DNA of 64,000 bases from Archangium sp. (GTDB lineage: Bacteria; Myxococcota; Myxococcia; Myxococcales; Myxococcaceae): the NCBI GenBank assembly GCA_030695565.1, contig JAUYRZ010000047.1, positions 1 through 64,000 on the forward strand, in the 5' to 3' direction. The notes under the pieces are model-generated. The model made no database searches, was not told the DNA's origin, and was given only the letters and a program-made list of their open reading frames with translations. Shown one piece after another: positions 17,187-34,264 of the stretch. Every line of letters starts with the position of its first letter. The stretch's first letter is position 1. Made by a program: the position numbers and the translations under genes.

Positions 17187-17669
17187 TCACAGGGCGAGCG
17201 CGCGCCGGATCTCTGCTGCGACGGCCTCGGGCTCCGCGTCAGCGCTGATCTCGCGCGCGTCGCCCGCCTCGTCGAGGAGCTCGTACTGGGTGTCGACCAG
17301 CGCCGGGTGCATGAAGTGCCCCGTTCGCGTGCGCAGCCGTGAGCGGATCAGCGCGGGTGTCGCCACGAGGTGCACGAACACGACCTGGGGGCTCACTCTC
17401 AGGCGCTCCCGGTAGCGATGCTGTAACGCCGAGCACGAGACGACAGCGCTCTGCTGGCGCGCCACGCAGCCGGCGATCGCCTCCCGGAGGGCATCAAGCC
17501 AGGGCCTCCGGTCCTCGTCGTCGAGAGCAATGGCCCGGCTCAGCTTGGCGATGTTCCCCGGTGGATGAAGGTCATCACCCTCGATGAAGCGCCAGGCGAG
17601 CTGCGCCGCCAGGAGACGCCCCACGGTCGTCTTCCCAGACCCTGTCACCCCCATGAGCACGAGGATCAT
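17187..17669 (-). CDS. gntK: Gluconokinase
   Basis: 160 residues, the usual size for thermoresistant gluconokinases. It phosphorylates gluconate to 6-phosphogluconate. The P-loop GVTGSGKTTVG is at residues ~7-17, EGDDLHPPGN is the gluconate-binding signature, and SCSALQHRYRERLR and TGHFMHPALVDTQYELLD are family segments. ATG 17669 overlaps the stop of the G6PDH-like gene (ATGA, 17666-17669). It is the last gene of a four-gene operon, and its product is the same intermediate that G6PDH plus lactonase would give. Confidence 0.92.
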   Translation of the reverse strand: MILVLMGVTGSGKTTVGRLLAAQLAWRFIEGDDLHPPGNIAKLSRAIALDDEDRRPWLDALREAIAGCVARQQSAVVSCSALQHRYRERLRVSPQVVFVHLVATPALIRSRLRTRTGHFMHPALVDTQYELLDEAGDAREISADAEPEAVAAEIRRALAL

Positions 17670-19018
17670 CGAGAGGGTCCCGTCGAGCCCGCGGCGTACT
17701 CGAGCAGGGGCACCGCGCCCGAACGCCACGCGTCGACGACCGGCTCGACGATGCGCCACGCCTCTTCCGCCTCGTCCGCCCTGATGGAGAGCGTGGAGCG
17801 CCCCTCCAGCACGTCGAGGAGGATCCGCGCGTACGCGGGCAGCGCCTCCTGGGTGAGGTCGGCCTCGAGGGAAACGGCGCGGAGCGTCGGCGAGCGCTCG
17901 GGCCCCGTGAGGTTGAGCGTCAGCCCCACCCGCTCCCGCTCGAGCCCGATGCGCAGCACGTTCTGGGAGGCTCCCGAAACGCCGAAGATCGAAACGGGCA
18001 CGTCGCGCAACGAGAGCGAAATCTCCTGTCGTGCGTGTCCCAGCGCCTTGCCCGTGCGGAGCACGAACGGAACCCCAGCCCAGCGCCCCGAGTCGACCGC
18101 CAGCGTCAGCTGCGCAAAGGTCTCGGTCATCTTCCTGGGGTCGACCCCGGGCTCGTCTGCGTACGCCGGCAGCTCCCGGCCGTCGATCGTCCCCGCCGTG
18201 TAGCGCCCCCGCACGGAGGCCGTGGAGAGCGCCCCGGACGAGAGCTGACGCACGGAGCGCAAGAAGTCGAGCCGGCGATCACGCAGGGCGCGCGCGTCGA
18301 GGCTGAGCGGCGGCTCCATCCCCACGAGACACGCGAGCTGCAGGAGGTGATTCTGCAGCACGTCTTTGAGCGCGCCGACCCCGTCGTAGTACGACGCGCG
18401 GCCCTCGAGCCCGAGCGTCTCGTCCCACACGATGTCGACGCGCTCGATGTGAGCGCGATCCCACACCGACGCGAGCAAGCCGTTCGCGAACCGAAGCCCG
18501 AGGATGTTGCGCACCGTCTGGTAGGCCAGGAAGTGATCGACCCGGAAGAGCATGTCCTCGGCGAAGTGCTCGTGCAGCAGGCGGTTGAGCGCGCGCGCCG
18601 AGGCCAGGCTCTCGCCGAACGGCTTCTCGAGCACGATCCGGCTGCCCTCCCGCACGCCGGCTCGTGCCAGCCCCAGCGCGGCCGGCCCGAAGACGCTCGG
18701 AGGCAGCGCCAGGTACGCCGCCACGGGTTCGTCCCGAACGAGCGGCGCCAGCGCGGCGCTCTGGGTCACCTCGGCGCGCAGGTAGTCGATGCGTCGAACG
18801 AGGGCCTCGCGCGAGGAAGCCGCCAGCTTTGCGCAGTGTTTCTGCAGCCCCTCGCCGACAACGGCGCGGAAGCCTGGGGTGCGGTGCTCGCGCCGGCCCA
18901 CGGCGGTGATTCGGAGCGCCGCCGGCAGCTTCCCCTCGTCCTCCAGCCAGGCCAGCGCAGGCAGCAGGTAGCGCGAGGTGAGATCGCCCGTACCGAGGAT
19001 CAACAGGCGCTCGATCAT
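17666..19018 (-). CDS. zwf: Glucose-6-phosphate dehydrogenase-like protein with an altered substrate motif
   Basis: 450 residues, slightly short for the family (~490). G6PDH oxidises glucose 6-phosphate with NAD(P)+. Seen here: a nucleotide-binding GTGDLTSRYLLPAL near the N-terminus, EKPFGES (Lys132), and YYDGVGALKDVLQNHLLQ with the catalytic-base His224, then MEPP. The usual RIDHYLGKE reads RVDHFLAYQ (Asp161, His162): the Lys that binds the substrate phosphate is Tyr166. The substrate may therefore be a different sugar or a non-phosphorylated one; this is inference. It overlaps its neighbours by 4 bp on both sides, between the GH15 and gluconokinase genes. Confidence 0.82.
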   Translation of the reverse strand: MIERLLILGTGDLTSRYLLPALAWLEDEGKLPAALRITAVGRREHRTPGFRAVVGEGLQKHCAKLAASSREALVRRIDYLRAEVTQSAALAPLVRDEPVAAYLALPPSVFGPAALGLARAGVREGSRIVLEKPFGESLASARALNRLLHEHFAEDMLFRVDHFLAYQTVRNILGLRFANGLLASVWDRAHIERVDIVWDETLGLEGRASYYDGVGALKDVLQNHLLQLACLVGMEPPLSLDARALRDRRLDFLRSVRQLSSGALSTASVRGRYTAGTIDGRELPAYADEPGVDPRKMTETFAQLTLAVDSGRWAGVPFVLRTGKALGHARQEISLSLRDVPVSIFGVSGASQNVLRIGLERERVGLTLNLTGPERSPTLRAVSLEADLTQEALPAYARILLDVLEGRSTLSIRADEAEEAWRIVEPVVDAWRSGAVPLLEYAAGSTGPSR

Positions 19019-20835
19019 CGGCGCTCGCCTCGAAGCGCCCTGCTCAAGGTGATGCCGCTGGAGATCACGCCGACGTGGCTGAAGGCTTGTGGATAGTTGC
19101 CGAGGAAGGCCCCTGTGCCGGGATCGATCTGCTCAGGGAGCAGCCCCAGGGGCCCGGCGCGCGCGCAGAGCGAGTCGTACAGCTGGACGGCCTCGTCGAG
19201 CCGACCCTGCAGCGCCAGGTTGTCGACCAGCCAGAAGCTGCAGAGAAGAAAGGCGCCTTCGTGCCCCTCCACGCCGTCCGGAGACTCGTCCGGCAGATAG
19301 CGATAGAGCAGGCCTTGCCCCGCTCCCAGGCGGGAGACCACCGCCTGGGTGGTCGCGATCATCCGCGGGTGATCAGCCCGAACGACGCGCCGGAGCGGGA
19401 GCGCCAGCAGGCTGCCATCGAGGCCCCCTTCCGCGCTCAAGTGCTCGGTGAACGACTGCCGGCGCTCGCTCCAGGCGCGCTCGATGATCGCCTCGCGGAT
19501 GCTCGCCGCTTGCGCCGCCCAGGCCGAGACGTCCTCGTCGAGCCCCAGCTTCGTGGCGATGCGCGCGCCGCGATCGAGCGCGAGCTGACACATCGCCGCG
19601 GAGTAGGTGAAGACGCGCCCGGGCACGCGGACCTCCCAGATGCCGTGGTCCGGCTGGTCCCACTCCTTGCCGGACGCCTCGACCAGGCGCCGCAGGCTCG
19701 CCCAGAGCCGGGGCGCGAGCTGCCCTCCGCCGGCCACCCATTGATAGGCACAGTCGAGGAGCTCGCCGTAGACGTCGTGCTGGCGCTGGTCTGCTGCCGC
19801 GTTCCCCCAGCGCACGGGCTGAGAGCCGCGGTAGCCGCTGAGCTCCGGGTCTGCGAACTCTGCTTGCGGTCGTCGCCCGTTCAGATCGTACAAGACCTGC
19901 GGCCGCCCCTCGCCGACGGTGTCGAGCACCCAGGTGAGGAAGCTCCAGGCCTCACCCTGGAGCCCGATGCGGCGCAGCGCGTAGACGGAGAACGCGGCGT
20001 CGCGGATCCACGTGTAGCGGTAATCCCAGTTGCGTTCGCCGCCGATCGCCTCGGGCAGCGAAGAGGTGGGCGCGGCGACGATGGCGCCCTGCTCGAAGTA
20101 GTCGAGCAGCTTGAGGGCGATCGCAGAGCGGCGCACCAGGGCCTGCTGCGGCCCGTCGTAGCGCAGGCCGCTCATCCACTCTCGCCAGGCGCGAAGCGTG
20201 CCCTGCAGCAGCGCCTCGGGAGCGCCGTCTTGCAAGGGCTCGGGCCTCTCGGCCCAGCTGAGCTTCAAGGTGAAGGTCGCGCCCGCCCGCAGCTCGAGGT
20301 TGGTCTCGAGGCCCTCGAGGGGCACCGTCGCGAACAACCAGAGCGGCAGCTCGGGGCGCCGCGCACAGGTGATGCGAAGGCCGTCACCAGACCGCTCGCA
20401 CCGGGCCCCGCCGCGGGGGGTGAGCCTCACCTGCAAGCAGACGGAGCCCTCGAGCACCTCCACGTGACGCAGGAGCTCGTGGCGCGCGGCCCTCGCAGGC
20501 TCGGCCAGCCGTGCACCCGGCTCGACGGTGAGGCAGTCGGTCAGGCGAACGACGCCCGTCGGTGAGCGCAGCTCGGTGACGAGCACGCCAGTGTCCTCGA
20601 GGTACTCCTGGCGCGACTCGACGAGCGCGTCGATGGTGATCACCTGCTCACCACCGCGCTCCGCGTCGAGCATGCGACAGAACAGCGCGGGATCATCGAA
20701 CCTGGGCGCGCACAGCCAGGCGACAGCGCCATCGCGAGCGACCAGGGCCGCCGTCACGCCGTCGCCGATCAGCCCATGGTCCTCGATGGGCAGGTAGCCA
20801 TCGACCGCGCGGAGTGGACGGAACGGCGCCTTCAT
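19015..20835 (-). CDS. Glycoside hydrolase family 15 protein (glucoamylase/trehalase-like)
   Basis: 606 residues, no signal peptide, so probably cytoplasmic. GH15 enzymes release glucose from alpha-glucans or trehalose by inversion. An N-terminal beta-sandwich (PIEDHGLIGDGVTAALV) precedes the (alpha/alpha)6 barrel. SLPEAIGGERNWDYRYTW is the substrate-site signature; Glu401 in QPDHGIWEVR is the likely general acid and Glu568 in LLPEQIDP the likely base. Bacterial members of this length act on trehalose or maltooligosaccharides; the specificity cannot be read here. It overlaps by 4 bp with both neighbours. Together with the G6PDH-like and gluconokinase genes it suggests release and oxidation of glucose. 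Confidence 0.9.
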   Translation of the reverse strand: MKAPFRPLRAVDGYLPIEDHGLIGDGVTAALVARDGAVAWLCAPRFDDPALFCRMLDAERGGEQVITIDALVESRQEYLEDTGVLVTELRSPTGVVRLTDCLTVEPGARLAEPARAARHELLRHVEVLEGSVCLQVRLTPRGGARCERSGDGLRITCARRPELPLWLFATVPLEGLETNLELRAGATFTLKLSWAERPEPLQDGAPEALLQGTLRAWREWMSGLRYDGPQQALVRRSAIALKLLDYFEQGAIVAAPTSSLPEAIGGERNWDYRYTWIRDAAFSVYALRRIGLQGEAWSFLTWVLDTVGEGRPQVLYDLNGRRPQAEFADPELSGYRGSQPVRWGNAAADQRQHDVYGELLDCAYQWVAGGGQLAPRLWASLRRLVEASGKEWDQPDHGIWEVRVPGRVFTYSAAMCQLALDRGARIATKLGLDEDVSAWAAQAASIREAIIERAWSERRQSFTEHLSAEGGLDGSLLALPLRRVVRADHPRMIATTQAVVSRLGAGQGLLYRYLPDESPDGVEGHEGAFLLCSFWLVDNLALQGRLDEAVQLYDSLCARAGPLGLLPEQIDPGTGAFLGNYPQAFSHVGVISSGITLSRALRGERR

Positions 20836-21494
20836 GGTGCCCCCGACGTTCGCCGCCGGACCGCCGCTCGCGCTGGCGCACCATCAGCACCCTCGAGCCG
20901 CAGGGGAAGGCAGACCAGGTCGTAGCGGCCCGCCTCGACGCCAGACAGGTCGAGCCCCTCGATGATCCACACCCCGGCGTCGAGCAGCGCGCGGTGGGTG
21001 CTGTGCGCGTGGTCGTGTTCGTAGCCAGCGACCGAGAGCGCGTCGATGCCCACGCAGCGAACGCCGGTGCGCGCGAGGAGCTGCGCCGCCGCGAGAGACA
21101 GGAAGACGAAGTCCTCGATGAAGGTGTCGGTCTTCCACAGCCGCGCCGAGTTGCGGGTCTTGAGCAGCACGCGCTCACCGCGCTGCAACTGGCAGCGAAG
21201 AAGCTCGGCCTCCGTCACCACTGACGGGTCTTCGATCACGACCACCCGCGCAGGCCCGATGGTGACGTCCAACGGCATCGCGTCGATCCCCGCGGCGTTC
21301 GGGGCGAAATGCACCGGGGCGTCCATGTGCGTCCCGCTGTGGACCCCGAGCGACAGGCTCGACACGTTCGCGTCGTCGCCTCGCGCCAGGTCGAGCGTCC
21401 GCTCGAGCACGACGGGCGGATTGCCCGGCCAGGCCGCCATTCCCGTCCGGACGGGGACTGAGATGTCGATCCATTGCGGCGTCTGGTGGGGCAC
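20832..21494 (-). CDS. Cyclase family protein (arylformamidase/KynB-like metal hydrolase)
   Basis: 220 residues from GTG 21494, which has a strong GGAGGT ribosome site at about 21498-21503; the frame is open to 21740 but that part reads like non-coding DNA. The metal-binding signature HSGTHMDAPVHF is intact, with more family segments (RVLLKTRNSARLW; GIDALSVAGYE; IIEGLDLSGVEAGRYDLVCLPL). Family members are Zn- or Mn-dependent amidases/hydrolases such as KynB. No other kynurenine genes are present, so the substrate is probably not formylkynurenine. It is the first gene of the sugar operon and overlaps the GH15 gene by 4 bp. Confidence 0.85.
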   Translation of the reverse strand: MPHQTPQWIDISVPVRTGMAAWPGNPPVVLERTLDLARGDDANVSSLSLGVHSGTHMDAPVHFAPNAAGIDAMPLDVTIGPARVVVIEDPSVVTEAELLRCQLQRGERVLLKTRNSARLWKTDTFIEDFVFLSLAAAQLLARTGVRCVGIDALSVAGYEHDHAHSTHRALLDAGVWIIEGLDLSGVEAGRYDLVCLPLRLEGADGAPARAAVRRRTSGAP

Positions 21495-21654
21495 CGTACC
21501 TCCCTGACCTGATCGGACTGCAAGACTCTGACCCGACCCCGACACTGGGGACCGCTTGGGGGAGATGGGGGATGCGCGACGGCGCGCCGAGGCGATGGTG
21601 CTGCTGGTGGCGACCAACCTCGAAGACCCGACGCGCCCGGTGGTGCAGGGCCTT

Positions 21655-21742
21655 TGGTCTGTTTTACCAACGGAAGAGGTCTTTATTTCGTTATTTAATA
21701 CGGTCGCCCGAAATGAGACCTTGCGTTCAAGGAGGAGCACCC
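21655..21742 (+). promoter_or_regulatory. AT-rich promoter region and strong ribosome site for the stress protein
   Basis: The stretch at about 21655-21705 is much richer in A and T than anything nearby (TTTATTTCGTTATTTAATAC), as expected for a promoter in GC-rich DNA. A consensus-like AAGGAGGAG lies at 21729-21737, five bases before ATG 21743. The exact -35 and -10 could not be assigned. The same gap separates it from the oppositely oriented cyclase operon. Confidence 0.5.
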
Positions 21743-23909: not shown

Positions 23910-24932
23910 TCAGAGCTTGAAGGTCGCCTCGACCGGCGCGAGATCCGACAGACCCGGGCGCCGCGCTTCGTGGTGGATGAAGACCGAACGAGCCGTCGGG
24001 GCGAGGTCAGGCGAGGCGAGAATGTGATCGAAGTCGCGGCGAAGCTCGACGCCCGGCTTCGGCCGGTAGATGTTGGTGTACCGCTGCGCCGAAGGGACGG
24101 CCTGCGTGGCGGAGCCGTAACCCTGCTTCAGCCAGTCACCGACCGAGGCGTCCGTCGACTGGTCATTGAAGTCGCCCATCACGACGACGGGGAGGCGCGG
24201 GTTTTCGGCGCGAAGCCGGTTCGCGACGTCGCGGGCGTAGCGGGCCTCGGCCTCGCGGAACGCGCGCGTCGGGTCGCCCGTCGAGCCGGGGCTGTCTGCG
24301 CGCGCGGCCTGGTGCTGCACGAGCACGACCACCGTCTGGCCGTTCACGTTCAGCTCCACCTCGAGCAGGTGGTGCTTGAAGGCAGCGTCCTTCGTGCCGG
24401 GGGCGAAGCCGAGGCTCTCGCGGCTGTGGTTGACGACGCGGAGGACCGGGTACCGGGTGAGCAGCGCGACGATGCGGCGCTCGGGAGTGCCGGAGTCCAC
24501 GAACACGCGGTGGGAGGGCGCCGGATCGATCCGGTTGGCGAGGTCGTCGAGCAGCGCCCGGGTCTCGACCTCCTGCAACGCGACGACGTCCGCGGAGATG
24601 CCCCTGAAGACGCTCGCCAGCGCGGCCGACTTGGCCGAGACGGCGGCGCCGGTCGGAATGACGCCGCCGGTGGCGCGCTCGTCGGTGCGGGAGGGGTCGT
24701 TGACCGAGTCGAAGAAGTTCTCGACGTTCCAGGTGGCGACCTTGAAGTCGATCGGAGCGCGGTTCGGAGCAGGCGGACGCCGCGCCGGAGTCCCGAGCGC
24801 CTCGTTGACGGCAGAGCGGGCGAAGCGACCGTCGAGCGCGCCGCCGGGCCCGCGGGAGTCGAGGGCGTTGAAGCCATCCTGGGTCAGCGCGACAGTCGCA
24901 GCGGCGCGGAGCTCACGAGCCCGAGCGCTCAC
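23910..24932 (-). CDS. Endonuclease/exonuclease/phosphatase family protein with altered catalytic His
   Basis: 340 residues, GTG start at 24932 in a GTGA overlap with the gene before. EEP enzymes are Mg-dependent phosphodiesterases acting on nucleic acids, lipids or nucleotides. Motifs: ATWNVENFF (Asn69), VALQEVE (Glu121), VVVMGDFNDQS and DFDHILAS. The C-terminal motif that is normally SDHxPV reads SDLAPV (residues 329-334), so the catalytic His is a Leu, which suggests loss or change of activity. The 62-residue N-terminal part is unassigned and no signal peptide is seen, although the other operon products are exported. Last intact gene of the five-gene run. Confidence 0.85.
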   Translation of the reverse strand: MSARARELRAAATVALTQDGFNALDSRGPGGALDGRFARSAVNEALGTPARRPPAPNRAPIDFKVATWNVENFFDSVNDPSRTDERATGGVIPTGAAVSAKSAALASVFRGISADVVALQEVETRALLDDLANRIDPAPSHRVFVDSGTPERRIVALLTRYPVLRVVNHSRESLGFAPGTKDAAFKHHLLEVELNVNGQTVVVLVQHQAARADSPGSTGDPTRAFREAEARYARDVANRLRAENPRLPVVVMGDFNDQSTDASVGDWLKQGYGSATQAVPSAQRYTNIYRPKPGVELRRDFDHILASPDLAPTARSVFIHHEARRPGLSDLAPVEATFKL

Positions 24933-25453
24933 GGGCCGGCGTCAGGCACCGCAGCATAGGGCGCGACGTCGAACTGCTCGCACGTGCCGCCGTCGGGGAA
25001 GGCGAAGAGGTTCACCGCCGGAGCAAGCAGGCTGTCATTCGAGGCGGGCACCGCCTCATTGATGCGGTCGACCCACACCACGCCGGCGTCGTCATCGGCC
25101 GGGTAACCGACCTCGAAGTAGTACTCGAAAGAGGCCGGGCCGACGCAGCGGGTGGCGAACCAGACGCCGGCATCGTTCGACTCCATCGGCACTCGCGAGC
25201 CGTCGATGACCAACTGCGCGGCGACCTCACCGGGTGCCGCAGACAAACCGAAGACCGTGCAACAGCCGGCATCGGCCAGCACGGCCTCTTCCACCGGGGG
25301 AGGCCGCTGCGTCGGGTCATCGGTGGGGGTGGTCTGGCCCATGACCACCCCGGGGCTCGGGGCGGGGCGTTGAATGAGGTCAGGGGCGGGCGGGATGGTG
25401 GGGCCACACGCCACCCACGCCAGGGCGCTGGCCAACAACACACGGCGCATCAT
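24929..25453 (-). CDS. Lipoprotein of unknown function
   Basis: 174 residues. The signal MMRRVLLASALAWVAC has lipobox Cys16, followed by a long Pro-rich linker. The mature domain has a Cys pair (DAGCCTVFGLS), RCVGPASFEYYFEVGYP and GTCEQFDVAPYA, compatible with a small disulphide-bonded beta domain. The segment AAQLVIDGSRVPM ... GVWFATRCVGPASFEYYFEV resembles carbohydrate- or calcium-binding beta-sandwich modules, but only loosely. ATG 25453 is preceded by GAGG and overlaps the stop of the HEAT-repeat gene; its own stop overlaps the EEP gene. Confidence 0.75.
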   Translation of the reverse strand: MMRRVLLASALAWVACGPTIPPAPDLIQRPAPSPGVVMGQTTPTDDPTQRPPPVEEAVLADAGCCTVFGLSAAPGEVAAQLVIDGSRVPMESNDAGVWFATRCVGPASFEYYFEVGYPADDDAGVVWVDRINEAVPASNDSLLAPAVNLFAFPDGGTCEQFDVAPYAAVPDAGP

Positions 25454-27342
25454 CGGAGCACCTCGGCGATCTCATCTTGCGTGAGCACGTCTTGAAACGT
25501 CTTGAGCAACGACGAGTGCTGCGAGAGCTCGACGCGGGCCTGGGCGATGAGGGCCTGCCGCATCGCGGGCTCCTGGGCGGCGGCGCTGCGCGCGATGAGC
25601 AGCACCAACGGGCGCCGCGACATGGGCGTGTTCATGAGCGGCAAATCGAGCAACGCCTGCTCGGCCAGCACCCGCTCGGCGCGCCGCTGCTGGTCGAAGT
25701 GCTGGTGTTGAATCGCGTCGTAGAGGTCTCGCTTCACCACCAGGTCGGTCTCACGGCGCAGCCACTCGAGGGCGATGGCCGCAGTGGCTTCGGGCGGCAT
25801 GCGGTTGAACAGCGCGGTGGCCGCCCGGCGCGTGCGGCGATCCTCCGAGCGCACGAAGGGCTCGGTGGACGGCAGCAGTGAAGCGTCGCCGGTGTTCCCC
25901 ACGGCCGCGAGCGCCGAGGCCAGCACCGGGTACGTGGTGTGACCGCTCAGCACTTCGGCGAGCGCGGAGGCGGCCACCTTCTGCACGGCGGCGTCTTCCG
26001 AGAGGCCCGACAGCATCGAGAGCGCCAACAACGACTCGCCGCCGAGGAAGCGGCTCTGCTTGCTCTTTTTTCCCAGGTGCTTCTTCGCGTCGTCAGCCAG
26101 CTCGAGCGCCAGCGGTACGCCGACGTCGTCGCGGGTGCCCAGCGCGAACATCGAGCGCACGCGATCCATCGGGTGGCGGGCAGGGTCGCGCTTGAGGGCC
26201 AGCAGCGCCTCACGCGCTTCGAGGTTTCGGGTCTTGCCAAGCGCGAGGAAGAAGTCGCGGGTCGCCTCGGCCGAGAAGTCACCGCCGTCGTAGCGGGCGA
26301 TCGCCGGGGCGATGCCTTCGGGGTGCACCTCGAACCACGCCGCGAGCTCGGGCCAGGTCTGCTGAATGCCTCGGCCCGAGGTGGTGCGGTCGATGAACTG
26401 CTCGACGGCCTCATTCACCGTGAGCGCGGCGACGCGGTGGCGGCGCTCGACGTCGAAGGAGCTCACCGGCCGATGCACCTGGCTGGCCGGACGCCACGGC
26501 AGCAGATCTTCGAAGACGTAGCTGGCGCGCTCACGCTCGGCCTGCGTGAAGGACACCGCTCCCGAGGGCGCCGCGACCAGCGACAGGCGCGAGTCACTGC
26601 GCGCGTCACCGAGCACCAGCGTCTCTGAGACCTGGACCTGGTCGAACCAGCCATCGGCGGCGCGCGTCAGCAACATCGTCGAGCGCGTCGGGGCGGGGGC
26701 GGTCGCCTCGGCCCACAGCCGCTCATAGCGGGTGAGGGTGCGCGTGAAGGTGCCCGCTGCATCGCGCGAGAGCGAGCCCACGGCCAGCCCATTGGCGTTC
26801 TCCATCTGGAAGTCCGCGGCAGGCGTGGCCGAGAACTGCGTTTCCCACAGCAGCGCCTGCTGGGTGCGGGCGACGGCGCGTGAGAGCGCCGGGGCGTGCC
26901 CGAAGGCGCGCAGCCGACAATCGGCGCCCACCTCGAGCATGAAGGGCGCATCGCCGAGCCGGGCATCGGCGCCCACGCCGGTCGCGTTCACTTGCGCCAG
27001 GCGGCCGACGAGCAGCGCCCCATCGGCGCGCGCTTCGACCACCTCGACGCCGAGCTGCGCCGACAGCCGCAGGCCGGTCTCGAGCATCTCGGTCGACCCC
27101 GGTACAGGCAGGCGGGTGGTCGCCTCGAGCGTCACCGCCCAGGCGTACGGCGCTCCGTGGCTGAAGGTGCAGCCGGGCGAAGGCGCGGGCACGGGCTCGG
27201 GCACGGGCGTGACCGCCGACATCGCGACTGGCTCGGGTTCGGCCACCATCGGGCTCGGCGCTGGCTCACGCGGCCAGAGCGCCATGACGGCGAGACCTGC
27301 TGCGCCGGTTCCCGCGAGGACCAGCCTGGTGGTGCGCTTCAT
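25450..27342 (-). CDS. Exported vitellogenin-like/HEAT-repeat protein
   Basis: 630 residues. The N-terminus has an uncleaved anchor or signal (LVLAGTGAAGLAVMALW) and a Pro/Glu/Val linker. Residues ~60-280 look like a large beta-barrel sheet: CTFSHGAPYAWAVTLEATTR, ALLVGRLAQVNATGVG and FQMENANGLAVGSLSRD. This recalls the N-terminal lipid-transfer domain of vitellogenin-type proteins, which is followed by a helical domain as here (~310-620, HEAT-like helical pairs with RDDVGVPLALELADDAKK, ASALAAVGNTGDASLL). A lipid- or protein-binding scaffold is inferred. ATG 27342 has AGGAG eight bases upstream; GTG 27345 is an alternative. Overlaps both neighbours. Confidence 0.7.
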   Translation of the reverse strand: MKRTTRLVLAGTGAAGLAVMALWPREPAPSPMVAEPEPVAMSAVTPVPEPVPAPSPGCTFSHGAPYAWAVTLEATTRLPVPGSTEMLETGLRLSAQLGVEVVEARADGALLVGRLAQVNATGVGADARLGDAPFMLEVGADCRLRAFGHAPALSRAVARTQQALLWETQFSATPAADFQMENANGLAVGSLSRDAAGTFTRTLTRYERLWAEATAPAPTRSTMLLTRAADGWFDQVQVSETLVLGDARSDSRLSLVAAPSGAVSFTQAERERASYVFEDLLPWRPASQVHRPVSSFDVERRHRVAALTVNEAVEQFIDRTTSGRGIQQTWPELAAWFEVHPEGIAPAIARYDGGDFSAEATRDFFLALGKTRNLEAREALLALKRDPARHPMDRVRSMFALGTRDDVGVPLALELADDAKKHLGKKSKQSRFLGGESLLALSMLSGLSEDAAVQKVAASALAEVLSGHTTYPVLASALAAVGNTGDASLLPSTEPFVRSEDRRTRRAATALFNRMPPEATAAIALEWLRRETDLVVKRDLYDAIQHQHFDQQRRAERVLAEQALLDLPLMNTPMSRRPLVLLIARSAAAQEPAMRQALIAQARVELSQHSSLLKTFQDVLTQDEIAEVLR

Positions 27343-30300
27343 CACTGAATCTCCTGTTTGAAGGCGCGCTCATCGTTCGCGAGGTTGCCCCCGGCCACCG
27401 AGAAGCCGCCGAACGAAATGAGGGCGTACGAGAAGTCGGTGAAGGGCGTGACGACCTTCACTTCGATCGACCCGGTGAGGATCTTCACTTCCCAGTCGAC
27501 GGAACGAACCATCGAGCTGTTGACCGCGGTGCGGCCCGCGTTGTCCTTCACCCGGGTGTACGTGAAAGCGATGCTGGGGAGGAGCGACGCCTCGATGATG
27601 TTCACGCTGCCACCGAGGCACAGCGCGAAGGGCGAGTCGGCGCTCGGGGTACAGAACTCGACGCCGAAGCCGGCCGCGAAGCCCAACTTCATCGCCAACT
27701 TCAGCTCGTGGGAGCTGCCGGTGGTGATGCGTGGCCGCACGCACACCGACGGGTAGAGGGCGTCGATGGAGCGGCTGCCGAACTCAGTGCCCTTGAGCGT
27801 GACGCCGCTGGCCACCGGCCGCTGGGTCGCCAGCACGGCCGCGGTCACCGAGGTGCCATCGAGGGTGGTAGGCGCCGCGATCGATTGAAAGGGTCCGAAG
27901 GTGCTCGCCTTGAGGAAGTTGGTGCCGTCCGAGAGCCAGCGCATGTACGTGGCGTGACCGTTGGCGCAGACCGCCGAGCTCCACGTGGTCAAGCAGTCGG
28001 TGTTCGGCCGGTACTCGTTGCCCACCTGCGCGCCGACCCAGGCCTCGGTCGTGGCGGGCAGCGCTGCGCGCATCAGCGCGAGGGCGGCGTCGGTGCGGGG
28101 CTCGGCGAGCTGGCCGCCGAGCGTCGCGCAGACCTCGCGGGCCTTCTTCAGCGGCATCGACGGCAGCGCGGTGTTCACGTCGGAGCAGGGCTGATCGACG
28201 ATCTCACCTGCTGCGTTGACCACCGCGCACGTGGTGCCGACGTTGCCGTTGTAGGTGTGGGTCAGCTCGAAGCCGAGCCCCACGCCGCCCGCGAGGCTGA
28301 ACGTGAGATCGCCCTGCACCGGGCCGAAGCGGAGTGGAATCGCGAACTCGAGACCGACCGCGAGCCCCTTGACGTCAGCCGAGAAGCTCCTGGCCTCGGC
28401 GTGGAAGAAGGGGATGGGCGCGCCGAGCTGCTTGGCCTTCCTGCCCAGCGTTTCGAGCTTGGGCGCGAAGGTGATGGTGTTCTCGGTCTCGCTGAAGACA
28501 TCGTCGCCTGGCAGCTTGAGCACGTTGAAGCCGAGGATCTTGAGCGACTCGCTCATGTCTTCGGTATCGCCTTCTTCATCGGCGTCGGAGGTCAGCGAGA
28601 AGATGGTGCTGCCCAGCGGCCCACCACTGCCGCCCAGCTCCTGGGTCATCGTGGTCGAGCAGACTTCAGCGCCGACCGCGCCGGTGCAGTGGCGATCGAA
28701 GCTGGGGTCGAAGTTGGCCGACATGCGCGACTCGCCGCTGGTGGTGGCGTCGCTGTCACCGTTGTCGCCGCCGCCGTTCTCGGTCTCGGCGAGCGGCAAC
28801 ACGATGTCTTCGCCGTAGAACGTGAAGAGGCCGCTTCGGGCGCAGCGGTTGACCGCTGACTCGAGGTTCCGGGTCGGCGCCCAGGCGTTGGTGCTCAGGG
28901 GCACTTGCACCTGCTCGACCACGCCGGGGTCTTCGACGCGAACCAGGTCGGTGCGGGTGGCGTTGTACTTGTAGTTCCAGTTCACCTTCGCCGAGAAGAA
29001 GCGCGGCGTGGCCTCGGTGCAGAACTGCAGCACGTAGGTGCGTCGTTCGCCCGGCTTGAGCGGGTAGCGGCCCGCGGGGTTGAACAGCGCGGTGCGCAAG
29101 GCGTTGGTGAGCGGCACCGAGAGGGTCTGGGCAGAGCCCGATTCGCTGAGGCCATCGAGCGGCGGTCGCATGGCATCGGCCGGCAGGGGAATCATCGCGC
29201 TGGTGTCGACCACCACGTTCCCGTCCCCATCTTTGAGGGTGGGGTCGGGCACGGGCACGAAGCCGGTGCCGGCGGCGCTGCCCCGCGTGACGCCTTCGAA
29301 CTGGAAGTAGATGCGGGTCCAGTCGACGCCGCCGGTGACCTGCTGCATGCCGTTGCGGCGCACGCTGCCCATGGGCCGGTAGCCCCTGAGGTAGCGACGC
29401 CAGACCTCTGATTCGGGCCCCGACATCTGCAGGATCAAGTCGACGGGGATGTCGCCGCGAACGCGCCCCTGCTTGTTGACGCGGAACTCGAGGCCGCGAA
29501 CGTTGACCTCCGAGGGGCGCAGCAGGGTCTTGGGCCGCTCGTTGATGAACAGCCCTGCGAGGTTCCCGCGCGCGCTCGTCACGGCCAGGCGGTTCTGCCG
29601 GTAGTACCCGAGCGCGTCGTGCACGCCCGCGGTGTAGTTGAAGAAGAAGTCGATGGGCTTGGTGCTGCACGAGTTCTCGGTCGCGGTGCGGAGATCTTGC
29701 AGCACGAGCGCGTGGCCCTCGAGATCGTAGGACGCCTCGAGCTGGTTGAGGTCGGAGTTGGTGGGCCGCCGCAGCGTCGGCGAGCTGACGTCGTAGCCCT
29801 GCGCGCGCCAGGCCGTGCGGGCGACGGTGGTGAACGCTTCGCCGGTGCTGCAGCTCGGAGGAATGCGCAGGGTCTCGTCGAACGCGATCTCGGTCTGGCC
29901 GTTCGATTCGCTGGGCGTGTACTTCGAGAGGTCGATCTTGCCGATCACGCAGCGCACGGCGTCGATGAGCGTCGCGCCGTTGTCGGGCAGACCCAGGCGA
30001 GTGCTCACCCAGAGCGTGAGGAGCTGCCTGGGCACGGTGCGGGTGGCCCCCACGGACCTGACACGCCCCTTGAAGCGATAGAGCTGGTCCTGATCGAGCG
30101 TCACGGCGAGGCCCTTGAGCCCGGTGTTCAAGGCGATGGCCTGACCATCGGGCTCGCCGGGAACGAGCAGCGTGCGCGCCACGCTGTCGAAGGTGACGGA
30201 GGTGGTCTCAATCGCCGTTTCGACCGGCTTCAGGAGGTCGGGCACGCACTGCATGTTGATGTCGCGCGAGGTGCGGCCGTAACAGTTCTCGGGAACGCAG

Positions 30301-30809
30301 ACGGTCTTGTCGCTCCAGGCCTGGCGCAGGGCGCAAGAGGCCGAGTAGGCGAACTCGGTGTGGACCTGGCCGTTTTCCCCAGAGCAGCGGTAGGTGATCT
30401 TCGGGCTCGTCTTCCACTCGGGGTAGCTGGCGTTCGAGCACGACACGAGGTTGCGCACCTCGTTGAGCGGGAAGCAGCTCGACTTGCCATCGCAGAGCGC
30501 CTTGGCGACCGCGAGGTCTTCGGCTTTGAGCACCGGCGCGAACCCGGAGCAGCTCAACGACTCGACTGACATCGTGTTCTCGAGCGCGTCGACGCCCGAG
30601 TCGGCCGCCGTCTTCGATTTGCGCAGCTGTTGCAGTTGCTCGCTGGTGTGGCCGTTGGGAAAGCGCCCGAAGTCCCACGGCCGTTGATCGGCGGGGCAGG
30701 TGAAGGCCGTCACGTTCTGACGAACCGACGTGGTGTCGTCGACCCCGCAGCCGACCAGCACCGTGAACACGGCGCCGCTCAGCATCCACTTCACGTTCTG
30801 GGTTCTCAT
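27342..30809 (-). CDS. Giant exported lipoprotein with a C-type-lectin-like domain
   Basis: 1155 residues. ATG 30809 is chosen because it overlaps the upstream stop (ATGA) and gives a lipoprotein signal, MRTQNVKWMLSGAVFTVLVGC. The N-terminal 200 residues are Cys-rich (about a dozen, e.g. SLSCSGF, GKSSCFPLNEVRNLVSC, VCVPENCYG). A long beta-rich middle has no recognised domain. Residues ~885-1025 resemble a C-type lectin fold: KKAREVCATLGGQLAEP, EAWVGAQVG, DCLTTWSSAVCANG and ALYPSVCVRP. The C-terminus has alternating strand segments as in surface or outer-membrane-associated sheets. A surface-exposed binding role is inferred. Confidence 0.75.
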   Translation of the reverse strand: MRTQNVKWMLSGAVFTVLVGCGVDDTTSVRQNVTAFTCPADQRPWDFGRFPNGHTSEQLQQLRKSKTAADSGVDALENTMSVESLSCSGFAPVLKAEDLAVAKALCDGKSSCFPLNEVRNLVSCSNASYPEWKTSPKITYRCSGENGQVHTEFAYSASCALRQAWSDKTVCVPENCYGRTSRDINMQCVPDLLKPVETAIETTSVTFDSVARTLLVPGEPDGQAIALNTGLKGLAVTLDQDQLYRFKGRVRSVGATRTVPRQLLTLWVSTRLGLPDNGATLIDAVRCVIGKIDLSKYTPSESNGQTEIAFDETLRIPPSCSTGEAFTTVARTAWRAQGYDVSSPTLRRPTNSDLNQLEASYDLEGHALVLQDLRTATENSCSTKPIDFFFNYTAGVHDALGYYRQNRLAVTSARGNLAGLFINERPKTLLRPSEVNVRGLEFRVNKQGRVRGDIPVDLILQMSGPESEVWRRYLRGYRPMGSVRRNGMQQVTGGVDWTRIYFQFEGVTRGSAAGTGFVPVPDPTLKDGDGNVVVDTSAMIPLPADAMRPPLDGLSESGSAQTLSVPLTNALRTALFNPAGRYPLKPGERRTYVLQFCTEATPRFFSAKVNWNYKYNATRTDLVRVEDPGVVEQVQVPLSTNAWAPTRNLESAVNRCARSGLFTFYGEDIVLPLAETENGGGDNGDSDATTSGESRMSANFDPSFDRHCTGAVGAEVCSTTMTQELGGSGGPLGSTIFSLTSDADEEGDTEDMSESLKILGFNVLKLPGDDVFSETENTITFAPKLETLGRKAKQLGAPIPFFHAEARSFSADVKGLAVGLEFAIPLRFGPVQGDLTFSLAGGVGLGFELTHTYNGNVGTTCAVVNAAGEIVDQPCSDVNTALPSMPLKKAREVCATLGGQLAEPRTDAALALMRAALPATTEAWVGAQVGNEYRPNTDCLTTWSSAVCANGHATYMRWLSDGTNFLKASTFGPFQSIAAPTTLDGTSVTAAVLATQRPVASGVTLKGTEFGSRSIDALYPSVCVRPRITTGSSHELKLAMKLGFAAGFGVEFCTPSADSPFALCLGGSVNIIEASLLPSIAFTYTRVKDNAGRTAVNSSMVRSVDWEVKILTGSIEVKVVTPFTDFSYALISFGGFSVAGGNLANDERAFKQEIQ

Positions 30810-33800
30810 GGAGACACGCACCTCAAGACGACGCAGCCGCCGTTGTTGGTGAACTGGAAGCCGTTACCGGCAGAAGGACAGAAGGTGTTCAGGTCGTTGA
30901 TGCTCTGGCCGCCCGGGCCGCTGCCGAAGCCGGCGGCCTCCGAGGTCAGCCCCGAAGGCAACGCGCCGAACGCGCCGCCCTGCCCGTCTGAGCCGAAGGT
31001 GCCAGCCAGGCCGCCGGGCTCACCCGCGCCTCCGCCACCCGAGCGCTCCGAGACGGTGGCTCTCTGCCCGCTGTTGGAGGGAGCCCCCCCCGACGAAGCG
31101 TCGCCTCCCGCGCCACCACCGGCCTGAGAGCCGCCACCACCTGCGGGCACCGAAAAGCTGGCCAGCGTCGCGCCACCCGAGCTCGCGCGCCTCACGCTCG
31201 TCAGCCCTCCGCCGCCGCCGCCTCCGCCGTTGGCGACGTTCGAGTCACCGAGCCCGCCGTTGGCCGGGGCGCCGAGGTACGAGCCAAGGTGGTCTGACGG
31301 GCCGCCCGACGACGCAGCCGCGCCGCCCGGGTTGCCGACCCACACCGTGAAGACGTCGCCCGGCGTGACGGAGAGCGTGCCGCTGACGAAGCCACCGGCG
31401 CCGCCGGGGGTGGGCGGGAGCATTTGCAGGTTGCCCCCCGCGCCCGCGCCACCGGCTGCGCCCCAGGCCGTCACCCGCATCTGGGTGCACCCCGCAGGCA
31501 CGGTGAAGGCGCCACTGGGCGTGGTGCCGTTGGTCGTCGGCACCGTGGCGACGAAGCGACCAGCGCCGCAGCGCCCCGTTCCCGCGCAGGCGCCTGAGTT
31601 GTCACCGCAATAGCAGTCGAGCGCCGGGCCGCAGTCGGTGTCGAGCGAGCAGGTCATGCCGCCATCGCCGCCGCCCGTGCCGCCGTCAGTGGAGGTGCCA
31701 GCATCAGTGCCGGCATCGGTGCCCGCATCGGTGCCCGCATCGGTGCCGGCATCGGTGCCGGCGTCGACCCTGAGCGTCACGTCGTCGCAGGTGCACGCGA
31801 GGGTGACCTGGGCCGGAGCGTCGGTCGGCAAGGGGCCGCGGTCGGCGCTGGTGATGGCGCAGCTCTGGCGGAAGCGGCGGCGCGGCACCGTCACGCTGCC
31901 GGGGTTGAGGGTGTTGTACTGGTAGGTGGCGTCGGCCTCGACGGTCGCGCCGACCGAGAGCTGCCAGGCGAGGCCTCCGTCGTAGGGGCCGGTGACGGTG
32001 AGCGAGCCGGCGTTGTAGTCGTTGCCCGAGTAGGCGACCTGCGCGTACGGCGCTGCGCTGACGTGCGGGCTCAGGCTGCTGAGCGTCACGCTCGGCCCCC
32101 AGGGGCGCAGCTCCCAGACGCGCACGCCGCCGGCGTTGGCGGGCGTGACCTCGACCCGGTCGGCGCACGAGCTCGAGTTGGTACCGAAGTGCACCTCGCT
32201 GCGAGTGCGCACGCAGGTGAGCACGTTCGATTCGGCGACGCTGACGTCGGCCATCGTCCAGTCGCCGTTCGCGTCGCGCACCTGAAACGTGCAGTTGAAC
32301 TGGTTGCTCAGCGGCTTCTGGACCTTGAGCGTGCGGAGGGCGCTGAACGAACGGGTGAACGACGACGCGCCGGTGCCGATGAGATCGTACGTGGCCCCCG
32401 TGCCGTCGAACTGCACGGGCAGGCGCACCAGCTGCGCGCCGAGGCCGACGACCGTCATGCTGCGTGAGTAGAGCTGCTGGCAGGTGCCCTGGCTGCATTG
32501 CGAGTTGGCGTTGCACACCGACGACTGCGCGCCACAGGGCTGCCCGACGGAGCAGCGGCACCGATTCGTGCCACCGCAGTCGACCGCCAGCTCGTCGCCG
32601 TTCTGCCGGCCATCGTCGCAGGTGGGGAACCGGCAGCGGCCGCTGAAGCACTCGGCCCCGGTGACGCAGTCGCTGGCGGAGTCGCAGACCTTCGTCTCAG
32701 CGCACCCACCGGAGCCGACGCGCTCGGTCTGCTGCGCGCAGAACGCGCCGCAGTCGACGTCGGTTTCCATGGGGTCTTTCGTGAGGTTCTTGCAGGTCGC
32801 GTAGTTGATGGCGGTGTTGACCGAGGTGCCGCCGTCGAGCGCGTTGATGGTGAGTTCGGCGTCGTTGCCGTTGGTGGTGCCCTGGGCGACGGTGGTCTTC
32901 GAGGTGCCGTCAGGTTGAGTGACGGTGGTCTGCACCGAGATCTGCGTGCCGCCCTGCGGGCTGGCGTCGACCGTGACCTTCACGCTCGAGGGGTCGCTGC
33001 TGTCGAGCTTGATGGTGGTGCTGGGGTTGCTCACGGTGATCGTGGTGCTGGTCTGAGAGCCGTCGGCGTTCAGGGTGACGGTGGTGAGGGTGGTGCCTGC
33101 GTCACCGGTCGAGTTGAAGGTCACCGTTTTTTGGGCGGGGTCGACGGTCATCGCGCCCTGCCCGCTCGACGAGTCGACCTTGGTCGCCATGGTCGGGCCG
33201 ACCGCGAAGATCGTGCCGCCGTCGCCCCCCACTGAGATGGTCTGCGGGCCGGTGCCCTTCACCATCACGTTGGTGATGGTGCTGGGGGCCTTGCAGAAAC
33301 AGTCAGCCGACGAGGGCAAGAAGGTGCCGCCCTGCTCGAGGATCTCGCCGTTCTTGAAGCCGACCATCGTGCCTTGCGACTCGTCTTTCACCAGCAGGGC
33401 GCCACCGCTGGCCGAGGCCGAGAGCCCTTCAGCGAAAGGCGCGGGGAGCACGCCCTGGCGCAGGCTGACGGGCGAGAAGAAGAGCTTGTTGCCGTTTTCT
33501 GGCGTGCCCTCGTAGCTGCGGGGGAAGTCGGGGTTGGTCGAGCCCTCGTACTTCCAGGTGTTGGCGTCGACGTTGAGCTCGAGGCGCCGCTCTTCCGAGG
33601 GGAAGCTGGGGTCGTAGACGCGAACGAAGTACTGGCCTGCAGCCGTACCGCGGAAGTAGCCGAAGGGCACCAGCGCGTGGCCACCCGAGAAGCCCGAGGC
33701 GTCCTTCATCGCGATGAGCAGGCGCCAGCCTTCGTCGGTCTGAGGAAGCGCCTTGGCGAGAAACGGCAGCACCTCGTTCGCGGCGAGCCGCTTGTCGTTG

Positions 33801-34264
33801 ACATGCACGGAGAGCACCTTCTGGGTCGCGGCCCAGTAGGAGATCTCGGAGCGCACGCTCGCCTGGAAGGGCACGCCTGCAGCCGAAGCGGCGCCGAGGG
33901 GCGCGGGGTCGAGCTTGCCGGTGGAGATCAACAGCGCCAGCACCGCCATGCCCTCGCTGTGGCCGTAGCGAAAGCCGGCGTTGGTGTCGTCGAGCCACGT
34001 CTGCGCGATGGCCGACGGTTGGCAGGTGTCGCCCGCGCCACGGGCGCAGACTGCGCTGTCACCGAACATGCGCGCCGCGAGGGGCGCGGTCAGCGCGCTC
34101 CCGCTCAACCCGTCATCGAAGTTCGCGAAGGTGAAGGCGTGCCGTTCGAATTGAAAGGCACCGTCCACGCGGTCGGGCGGCTTGTCGTTGCAGCCAGTGA
34201 CGGTCAGGCAGACGATGATTGCTTCCAGGCGCAGCCGCGCGCGCGCCGATTTCAAATACTGCAT
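30806..34264 (-). CDS. Giant exported lipoprotein: papain-like domain, beta region, Asp-Ala-Gly stalk, Gly-rich C-terminus
   Basis: 1152 residues. The signal is RLEAIIVCLTVTGC with lipobox Cys25. Residues ~80-235 look like a papain-fold domain: RYGHSEGMAVLALL, then GGHALVPFGYF (His196) and YFVRVYDPSFP (Asp218). Related proteins have Cys where Ser103 stands, so the nucleophile is probably lost. A Thr/Ser-rich beta stretch (~330-480) and a Cys-rich EGF/MopE-like part (~510-620) follow. A stalk of six Asp-Ala-Gly-Thr units comes next, and finally a very Gly-rich domain (~960-1120). First gene of the operon. A surface or adhesin-like protein is inferred; 490 bp of gene-free DNA lie upstream. Confidence 0.75.
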   Translation of the reverse strand: MQYLKSARARLRLEAIIVCLTVTGCNDKPPDRVDGAFQFERHAFTFANFDDGLSGSALTAPLAARMFGDSAVCARGAGDTCQPSAIAQTWLDDTNAGFRYGHSEGMAVLALLISTGKLDPAPLGAASAAGVPFQASVRSEISYWAATQKVLSVHVNDKRLAANEVLPFLAKALPQTDEGWRLLIAMKDASGFSGGHALVPFGYFRGTAAGQYFVRVYDPSFPSEERRLELNVDANTWKYEGSTNPDFPRSYEGTPENGNKLFFSPVSLRQGVLPAPFAEGLSASASGGALLVKDESQGTMVGFKNGEILEQGGTFLPSSADCFCKAPSTITNVMVKGTGPQTISVGGDGGTIFAVGPTMATKVDSSSGQGAMTVDPAQKTVTFNSTGDAGTTLTTVTLNADGSQTSTTITVSNPSTTIKLDSSDPSSVKVTVDASPQGGTQISVQTTVTQPDGTSKTTVAQGTTNGNDAELTINALDGGTSVNTAINYATCKNLTKDPMETDVDCGAFCAQQTERVGSGGCAETKVCDSASDCVTGAECFSGRCRFPTCDDGRQNGDELAVDCGGTNRCRCSVGQPCGAQSSVCNANSQCSQGTCQQLYSRSMTVVGLGAQLVRLPVQFDGTGATYDLIGTGASSFTRSFSALRTLKVQKPLSNQFNCTFQVRDANGDWTMADVSVAESNVLTCVRTRSEVHFGTNSSSCADRVEVTPANAGGVRVWELRPWGPSVTLSSLSPHVSAAPYAQVAYSGNDYNAGSLTVTGPYDGGLAWQLSVGATVEADATYQYNTLNPGSVTVPRRRFRQSCAITSADRGPLPTDAPAQVTLACTCDDVTLRVDAGTDAGTDAGTDAGTDAGTDAGTSTDGGTGGGDGGMTCSLDTDCGPALDCYCGDNSGACAGTGRCGAGRFVATVPTTNGTTPSGAFTVPAGCTQMRVTAWGAAGGAGAGGNLQMLPPTPGGAGGFVSGTLSVTPGDVFTVWVGNPGGAAASSGGPSDHLGSYLGAPANGGLGDSNVANGGGGGGGGLTSVRRASSGGATLASFSVPAGGGGSQAGGGAGGDASSGGAPSNSGQRATVSERSGGGGAGEPGGLAGTFGSDGQGGAFGALPSGLTSEAAGFGSGPGGQSINDLNTFCPSAGNGFQFTNNGGCVVLRCVSP
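31695..31767 (-). repeat. 12-bp coding tandem repeat (Asp-Ala-Gly-Thr stalk)
   Basis: About six near-identical 12-bp units (plus strand GCATCGGTGCCG or GCATCGGTGCCC) encode DAGT repeats in the giant lipoprotein. Such arrays can change in copy number by slippage without shifting the frame. Confidence 0.85.

Follow-up and report, generated by a model that had tools for sequence, protein, structure and literature searches.

The operon at positions 23910-34264 of the Archangium sp. window (the whole stretch of 64,000 nucleotides that was analysed, from contig JAUYRZ010000047.1) contains a conserved four-gene cassette, A-B-C-D. Computational comparison of its predicted structure shows protein C to be a homologue of the N-terminal module of the large lipid transfer proteins (LLTPs), with a beta-barrel followed by a helical superhelix in one chain. 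In animals, LLTPs are the carriers of yolk lipid, LDL and chylomicrons. By profile comparison, the end of the neighboring protein B is in turn computed to be homologous to a partner domain encoded next to bacterial C-like genes.

All genes of the operon lie on the minus strand. Gene A (30806..34264) encodes a 1152-residue lipoprotein with a papain-like domain, a Thr-rich stalk, a Cys-rich region, a DAGTDAG linker and a Gly-rich end. It is followed by gene B (27342..30809), encoding a 1155-residue lipoprotein with a Cys-rich, lectin-like N-terminus and a C-terminal beta domain into which a C-type lectin domain (CTLD) is inserted, and by gene C (25450..27345), whose LLTP N-module protein begins with a membrane or signal segment and a Pro/Ala-rich linker. 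Gene D (24929..25453), which is kept 3' of C, encodes a small lipoprotein of 174 residues with a conserved CC motif, and is overlapped in the window by gene E (23910..24932), encoding a 340-residue protein of the EEP family. C is 630 residues long from an ATG start at 27342 and 631 residues long from a GTG start. The junctions read ATGA (A/B), TGATG (B/C, with the ATG start of C), ATGATG (C/D) and GTGA (D/E), with overlaps of 4, 1, 4 and 4 bases, and the five ORFs of the original prediction, their sizes and their overlapping junctions are all in place. Lipoboxes are present at Cys25 of A, Cys21 of B and Cys16 of D; C has a hydrophobic N-terminal segment and no lipobox, and inspection of the E sequence reveals neither a lipobox nor an export signal. 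Downstream of the operon, on the same strand (17666-21740), lie overlapping glucose-6-phosphate dehydrogenase, GH15 trehalase-like and cyclase-family genes.

Genes A to D recur in the same order in 18 distinct loci, including the window. A search of relatives with C gave matches in 11 of 60 genomes, the best of which have A to D in the same order and orientation; named genome contigs were also scanned, and further loci were gained from Myxococcaceae, Archangium-like and Labilithrix genomes, as well as from MAGs labelled Deltaproteobacteria and Bdellovibrionales. For the cassette on the contig labelled Bdellovibrionales (L039), a real transfer and a binning error are both possible. Five genomes carry two cassettes each. 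Pairwise distances between loci correlate between every two of A to D (r = 0.85-0.93, with 0 of 2000 permutations as high), and, given this co-divergence and the recurrence in order, the arrangement is not due to chance. The E protein matches PF03372 (EEP) with an E value of 6.3e-20 and 72.3 bits, above the Pfam cut-off of 24.5. A search of the same loci, however, finds no E homologue adjoining any of the other 17 cassettes, which rules out the five-gene unit that had been predicted: the conserved unit should be described as a four-gene one, and the EEP gene is a bystander outside it. What stands of the earlier proposal is that A to D form one conserved exported system; non-conservation of the set and housekeeping folds were both looked for, and neither was encountered.

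The cassettes belong to two types, and all genes of a given locus are of the same type. In type 1, which includes the window, the end of A is a Gly-rich domain; in type 2 (G000:C82, L027-L030 and L046), it is a DUF5122 propeller, and B has ~1600 residues. The genome from which the window is taken has both types, one at 30806-34264 of the window (type 1) and the other at 1541-5233 of L030 (type 2).

Protein C was modelled with AlphaFold2 from an alignment of 21 homologues. The model (pLDDT 86) has an 11-strand beta domain followed by a HEAT superhelix, with strands within residues 65-257, a helix at 155-166 and about 20 helices across 295-630. The predicted beta domain (residues 55-290; 26473..27180), with one main helix in addition to its strands, is N-sheet-like and mostly has pLDDT values of 75-95, and the superhelix (residues 295-630; 25453..26460) is delimited by the model together with structure and profile matches. 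When the model is compared with the PDB by Foldseek, ranks 1-5 are all LLTPs, namely MTP (E 2.6e-12 and 4.4e-10), honey-bee vitellogenin (2.8e-8 and 3.1e-8) and apoB-100 (1.3e-7), and the first non-LLTP is an engineered repeat protein (5.9e-4). VIA aligns C with lipovitellin over 502 residues (Z 16.9; model residues 59-612, covering both domains), with apoB over 420 (Z 16.4), with MTP over 506 (Z 15.8) and with bee vitellogenin (Z 15.6); among the 50 matches listed, only the LLTPs span from residue 55-59 to past 610, and the rest cover helices only. The rigid rmsd to the LLTPs is large, at 10-16 Å over both domains, as expected from a flexible superhelix.

At the sequence level, a profile built from 40 C-like proteins aligns with lipovitellin (6.5e-10), MTP (5.3e-6) and apoB (0.0056) in one shared register, with profile positions 398-570 on chain positions 342-555, i.e. 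the helical part; large HEAT proteins of eukaryotes, importins among them, match at 0.03 or worse. The same profile also matches deoxyhypusine hydroxylase, bilin lyase and designed alphaReps, all of which are HEAT proteins, so sequence alone would not decide, and the LLTP assignment of C rests on the two-domain fold. In a Pfam search, the window's own C has no match to PF01347 (Vitellogenin_N) above the curated cut-off. The C- and A-sheets (PF09172) that line the lipid cavity are absent from the modelled C chain, which ends after the helical domain, and C is consequently filed as an LLTP N-module homologue and not as a full LLTP. With that restriction, the vitellogenin/HEAT-like character originally suggested for C is supported by the structure and profile searches.

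The dominance of HEAT matches in sequence searches with C is also what would be expected if the LLTP likeness were a convergence of a beta domain and HEAT repeats, with C serving as a mere structural scaffold in a lectin-studded complex for adhesion or prey contact. The C-type lectin fold and lectin-like repeats of B would suit such a complex, as would the stalk and exchangeable tip of A. We nevertheless consider it improbable, since LLTPs take all of the first five Foldseek ranks and are, among the matches listed, the only chains that align across both domains, and since simple pairs of C-like and partner proteins without any lectin are common.

Among 193 Myxococcota genomes, 53 have PF01347 matches over the cut-off, as against none of the 14 controls at E 0.001. 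At E values of up to 10, matches appear in two of the control genomes, one of them over the cut-off, which shows that PF01347 also picks up other HEAT proteins. With an E of 0.01 or better, it matches 30 of the 40 C-like proteins, always within their helical (HEAT) half, and the beta domain of C is found independently in several PF01347-matching proteins. A 2341-residue open frame with HEAT repeats and a weak match to the vitellogenin model was also observed (G000:C57:32880-33275).

The C-like genes usually adjoin genes for secreted beta-rich proteins. Two groups of these proteins (families I and II), of 400-470 and 800-1400 residues, have a common C-terminal domain of ~250 residues (hhalign E 1.3e-18), which is modelled with long amphipathic strands and for which there is no Pfam family. 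With its lectin cut out, the C-terminus of B matches the family I partners with an hhalign E of 1e-7; among the controls for this match, the best of 80 column-shuffled profiles reaches 0.03, reversed profiles 0.05-0.07 and unrelated regions 0.3-0.8. The partner domain is present in an ORF adjoining the C-like gene at 15 of 20 further loci, which had been left out when the partner profile was built but come from related genomes and are not fully independent. Four of the five loci without an adjacent partner adjoin dnaA. A C-like gene directly beside dnaA, near the putative replication origin, is seen in several Myxococcaceae (L140, L145, L170, L172, L179 and L180). No single ORF fuses C and partner at any of the 63 loci where a C-like ORF is present. 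C, which the original prediction had taken for one of five parts, is half of a widespread two-protein module, the other half of which, the C-terminal domain of B, had been invisible to that first reading.

One member of the partner domain family matches PF09172, the LLTP open beta-sheet domain, weakly (E 0.099). PF09172 was tried and rejected as an independent marker for partners: a search of the phylum gave sub-threshold matches only, of which two inspected by eye are low-complexity, and only those at G095:C22 adjoin a C-like gene.

The pairing of C-like genes with such partners can also be explained by a role of C in the periplasm, as a chaperone or assembly factor dedicated to its beta-rich partner, with no lipid involved and with the exported partner doing the work, for example lectin adhesion to neighbors or prey. 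C is always exported and never a lipoprotein, and its length is steady at ~630-680 residues, while the secreted, beta-rich partners vary from 400 to 1400. Animal MTP, moreover, acts as an assembly factor for apoB. The resemblance of C is specifically to the LLTP scaffold and not to known periplasmic chaperones, and yet a scaffold without sheets could itself be a chaperone. Altogether we regard this explanation as rather unlikely, although it is the main rival to an LLTP-like role for C and its partner.

The CTLD of B (residues 858-1027; 27729..28238) is inserted within the beta domain. Its Foldseek probability to CTLDs is 1.00, its VIA Z is 12.5 and its profile matches the PLA2 receptor with E 4.5e-11, so that the C-type-lectin-like fold claimed for B is borne out by Foldseek and VIA. 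Neither the EPN/QPD nor the WND motif of Ca-dependent sugar binding is present in the window's B sequence. The candidate partner domain lies on either side, with a first part at residues 690-857 (28239..28742), placed by hhalign with the lectin excised, and a second at 1028-1155 (27345..27728), where the longest modelled strands have 27 residues. The model of B is weak overall (mean pLDDT 67.7, pTM 0.45) and sets the CTLD between very long strands at 813-854 and 1030-1152. No confident PDB match was found for this beta domain, though the CTLD fills the match lists. At the other end of the protein, the Cys-rich N-terminal repeats of type 2 B sequences match the SUEL-lectin family (PF02140) with E 0.0016-0.0056, below the Pfam cut-off, and the window's B has no match to PF02140.

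A more distant, two-gene version is found at L031 and L032, where a B-like protein (Bprime) precedes a C homologue. Bprime combines an EGF-like stretch and a beta-rich end with a canonical CTLD (E 4.6e-12), in which the EPN and WDD motifs are present. A direct profile match between the end of B and these lectin-bearing relatives is significant in the lectin only; the family I partners match Bprime with E 1.6e-4. A diversity-generating retroelement acting on the lectin domain was considered and rejected, as the genome holds no second DNA copy of the CTLD beyond a 28-base match.

The papain-like domain of A (residues ~40-290; 33395..34147) features the motifs GHSEGMAV, with Ser in place of Cys, GGHALVPFGYF and RVYDPSFP. 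A comparison of motifs finds Ser at the Cys position in every type 1 A, including that of the window, whereas type 2 A and all stand-alone relatives keep the Cys, as G(R/H)CEG(F/M); within the cassettes this is a clean subtype-wide switch. The window's A also reads YDPS where others have YDxN, i.e. Ser at the Asn position, and with Cys and Asn both replaced an active protease is ruled out here. Lacking the catalytic Cys, type 1 A is probably a binding or structural protein. No Pfam protease family is matched by the A proteins, and tblastn finds relatives of the papain-like domain in other phyla. A stand-alone exported papain-like family related to the A N-terminus (L047-L060), with the motifs GGHCEGM, GGHAITPY and YDNNYP, occurs in Cyanobacteria, Chloroflexota, Actinobacteria and others. 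The middle of A carries myxobacterial Cys-rich repeats, and the Gly-rich domain (residues 915-1122; PF21722; 30899..31522) is replaced by the DUF5122 propeller in type 2, the C-terminal end being exchangeable between types. The papain-like domain, stalk and Gly-rich end predicted for A are therefore present, the stalk being Cys-rich, but the catalytic Cys is lost in the window.

That the Cys-His-Asn motifs are kept in type 2 and in the stand-alone relatives could point to a proteolytic system, with B, or proteins belonging to other cells, as the substrates of A and with the remaining genes as delivery parts. The Ser found for Cys in all type 1 A proteins, the additional Ser at the Asn position in the window and the existence of C-like/partner pairs without A make this highly improbable.

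In our judgement, the chances are about even that A-B-C-D forms a complex in the cell envelope that acts as a two-chain version of an animal LLTP. In such a complex C would be exported, probably tethered via its N-terminal segment, and would act as the scaffold. B would be a lipoprotein of the outer membrane or cell surface, and its C-terminal beta domain, cradled by C, would stand in for the LLTP lipid sheets that C lacks, the amphipathic sheets of the partner lining a hydrophobic cavity. This replacement is proposed because the helical subdomain of vitellogenin covers and scaffolds exactly those sheets (PMC9219001), an analogy that is suggestive. The CTLD in the beta domain and the lectin-like repeats at the N-terminus of B may bind glycans, and A (a dead protease in the window's type, with a long stalk and an exchangeable tip) and D would be accessory lipoproteins. 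The lectins of B and the stalked A would place the complex at the cell surface for contact with cells or glycans, where it might retain or hand over lipid, or some other hydrophobic cargo, with kin or prey as possible counterparts. We infer the physical pairing of B with C, the lipid cargo, the topology and the role in kin or prey contact. The lipid role that the original prediction had allowed for the operon is plausible.

More tentatively, Myxococcota may have two-chain LLTP-like machines, made of a C-like scaffold and a secreted beta partner, that move lipid across or between envelopes, are ancestral to the lectin-bearing surface versions and were either the source of animal vitellogenin, apoB and MTP or were acquired from them by transfer. 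If the complex of C does carry lipid, bacteria own a lipid-handling system that was thought to be animal. A bacterial LLTP N-module homologue that is common among social predatory bacteria and encoded beside a conserved beta partner would supply the superfamily with an outgroup, and possibly with a two-chain ancestor; the module of C-like protein and partner would point to an unstudied system for lipid or other hydrophobic cargo in Gram-negative envelopes. The system is testable in culturable relatives, because the simple two-gene form occurs in complete genomes from the same family.

Avarre and co-workers treat the LLTPs as an animal superfamily, with bacteria unmentioned (PMC1783640), and a survey that covers bacterial homologues of lipid transfer proteins from eukaryotes mentions neither LLTPs nor vitellogenin (PMC6791001). 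A literature search whose scope left subscription journals and preprints outside found no papers on bacterial vitellogenin, LLTPs or lipovitellin, myxobacteria included, or on an A-B-C-D operon; automatic database labels for bacterial PF01347 matches may exist.

Compared with known systems, A resembles the papain-like (clan CA) proteases in the His and YDxN motif contexts of its family and in the Cys of type 2, but differs from them in the change of Cys to Ser in the window's type and in matching no Pfam family. B shares the CTLD fold with C-type lectin domains; its own, however, is inserted inside another domain, and the EPN/WND-type motif that is present in L031 and L032 is missing from the window's B. 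The family I and II partners beside bacterial PF01347 genes are like B in the C-terminal domain and in the adjacent C-like gene, but are smaller or lectin-free, and have no lipobox and no A or D gene nearby. The AsmA/TamB lipid transfer proteins are likewise bacterial relatives of eukaryotic lipid transfer proteins in the cell envelope, although their repeating-groove fold is unrelated to that of C (PMC6791001). With the LLTP superfamily (vitellogenin/lipovitellin, apoB and MTP; PF01347), which gives its best structural matches, C shares a beta-barrel and a helical superhelix in the same order. Unlike these proteins, C is without lipid sheets, their candidate replacement being a separate protein with a domain unrecognised by Pfam, and C is bacterial and linked to the membrane or envelope.
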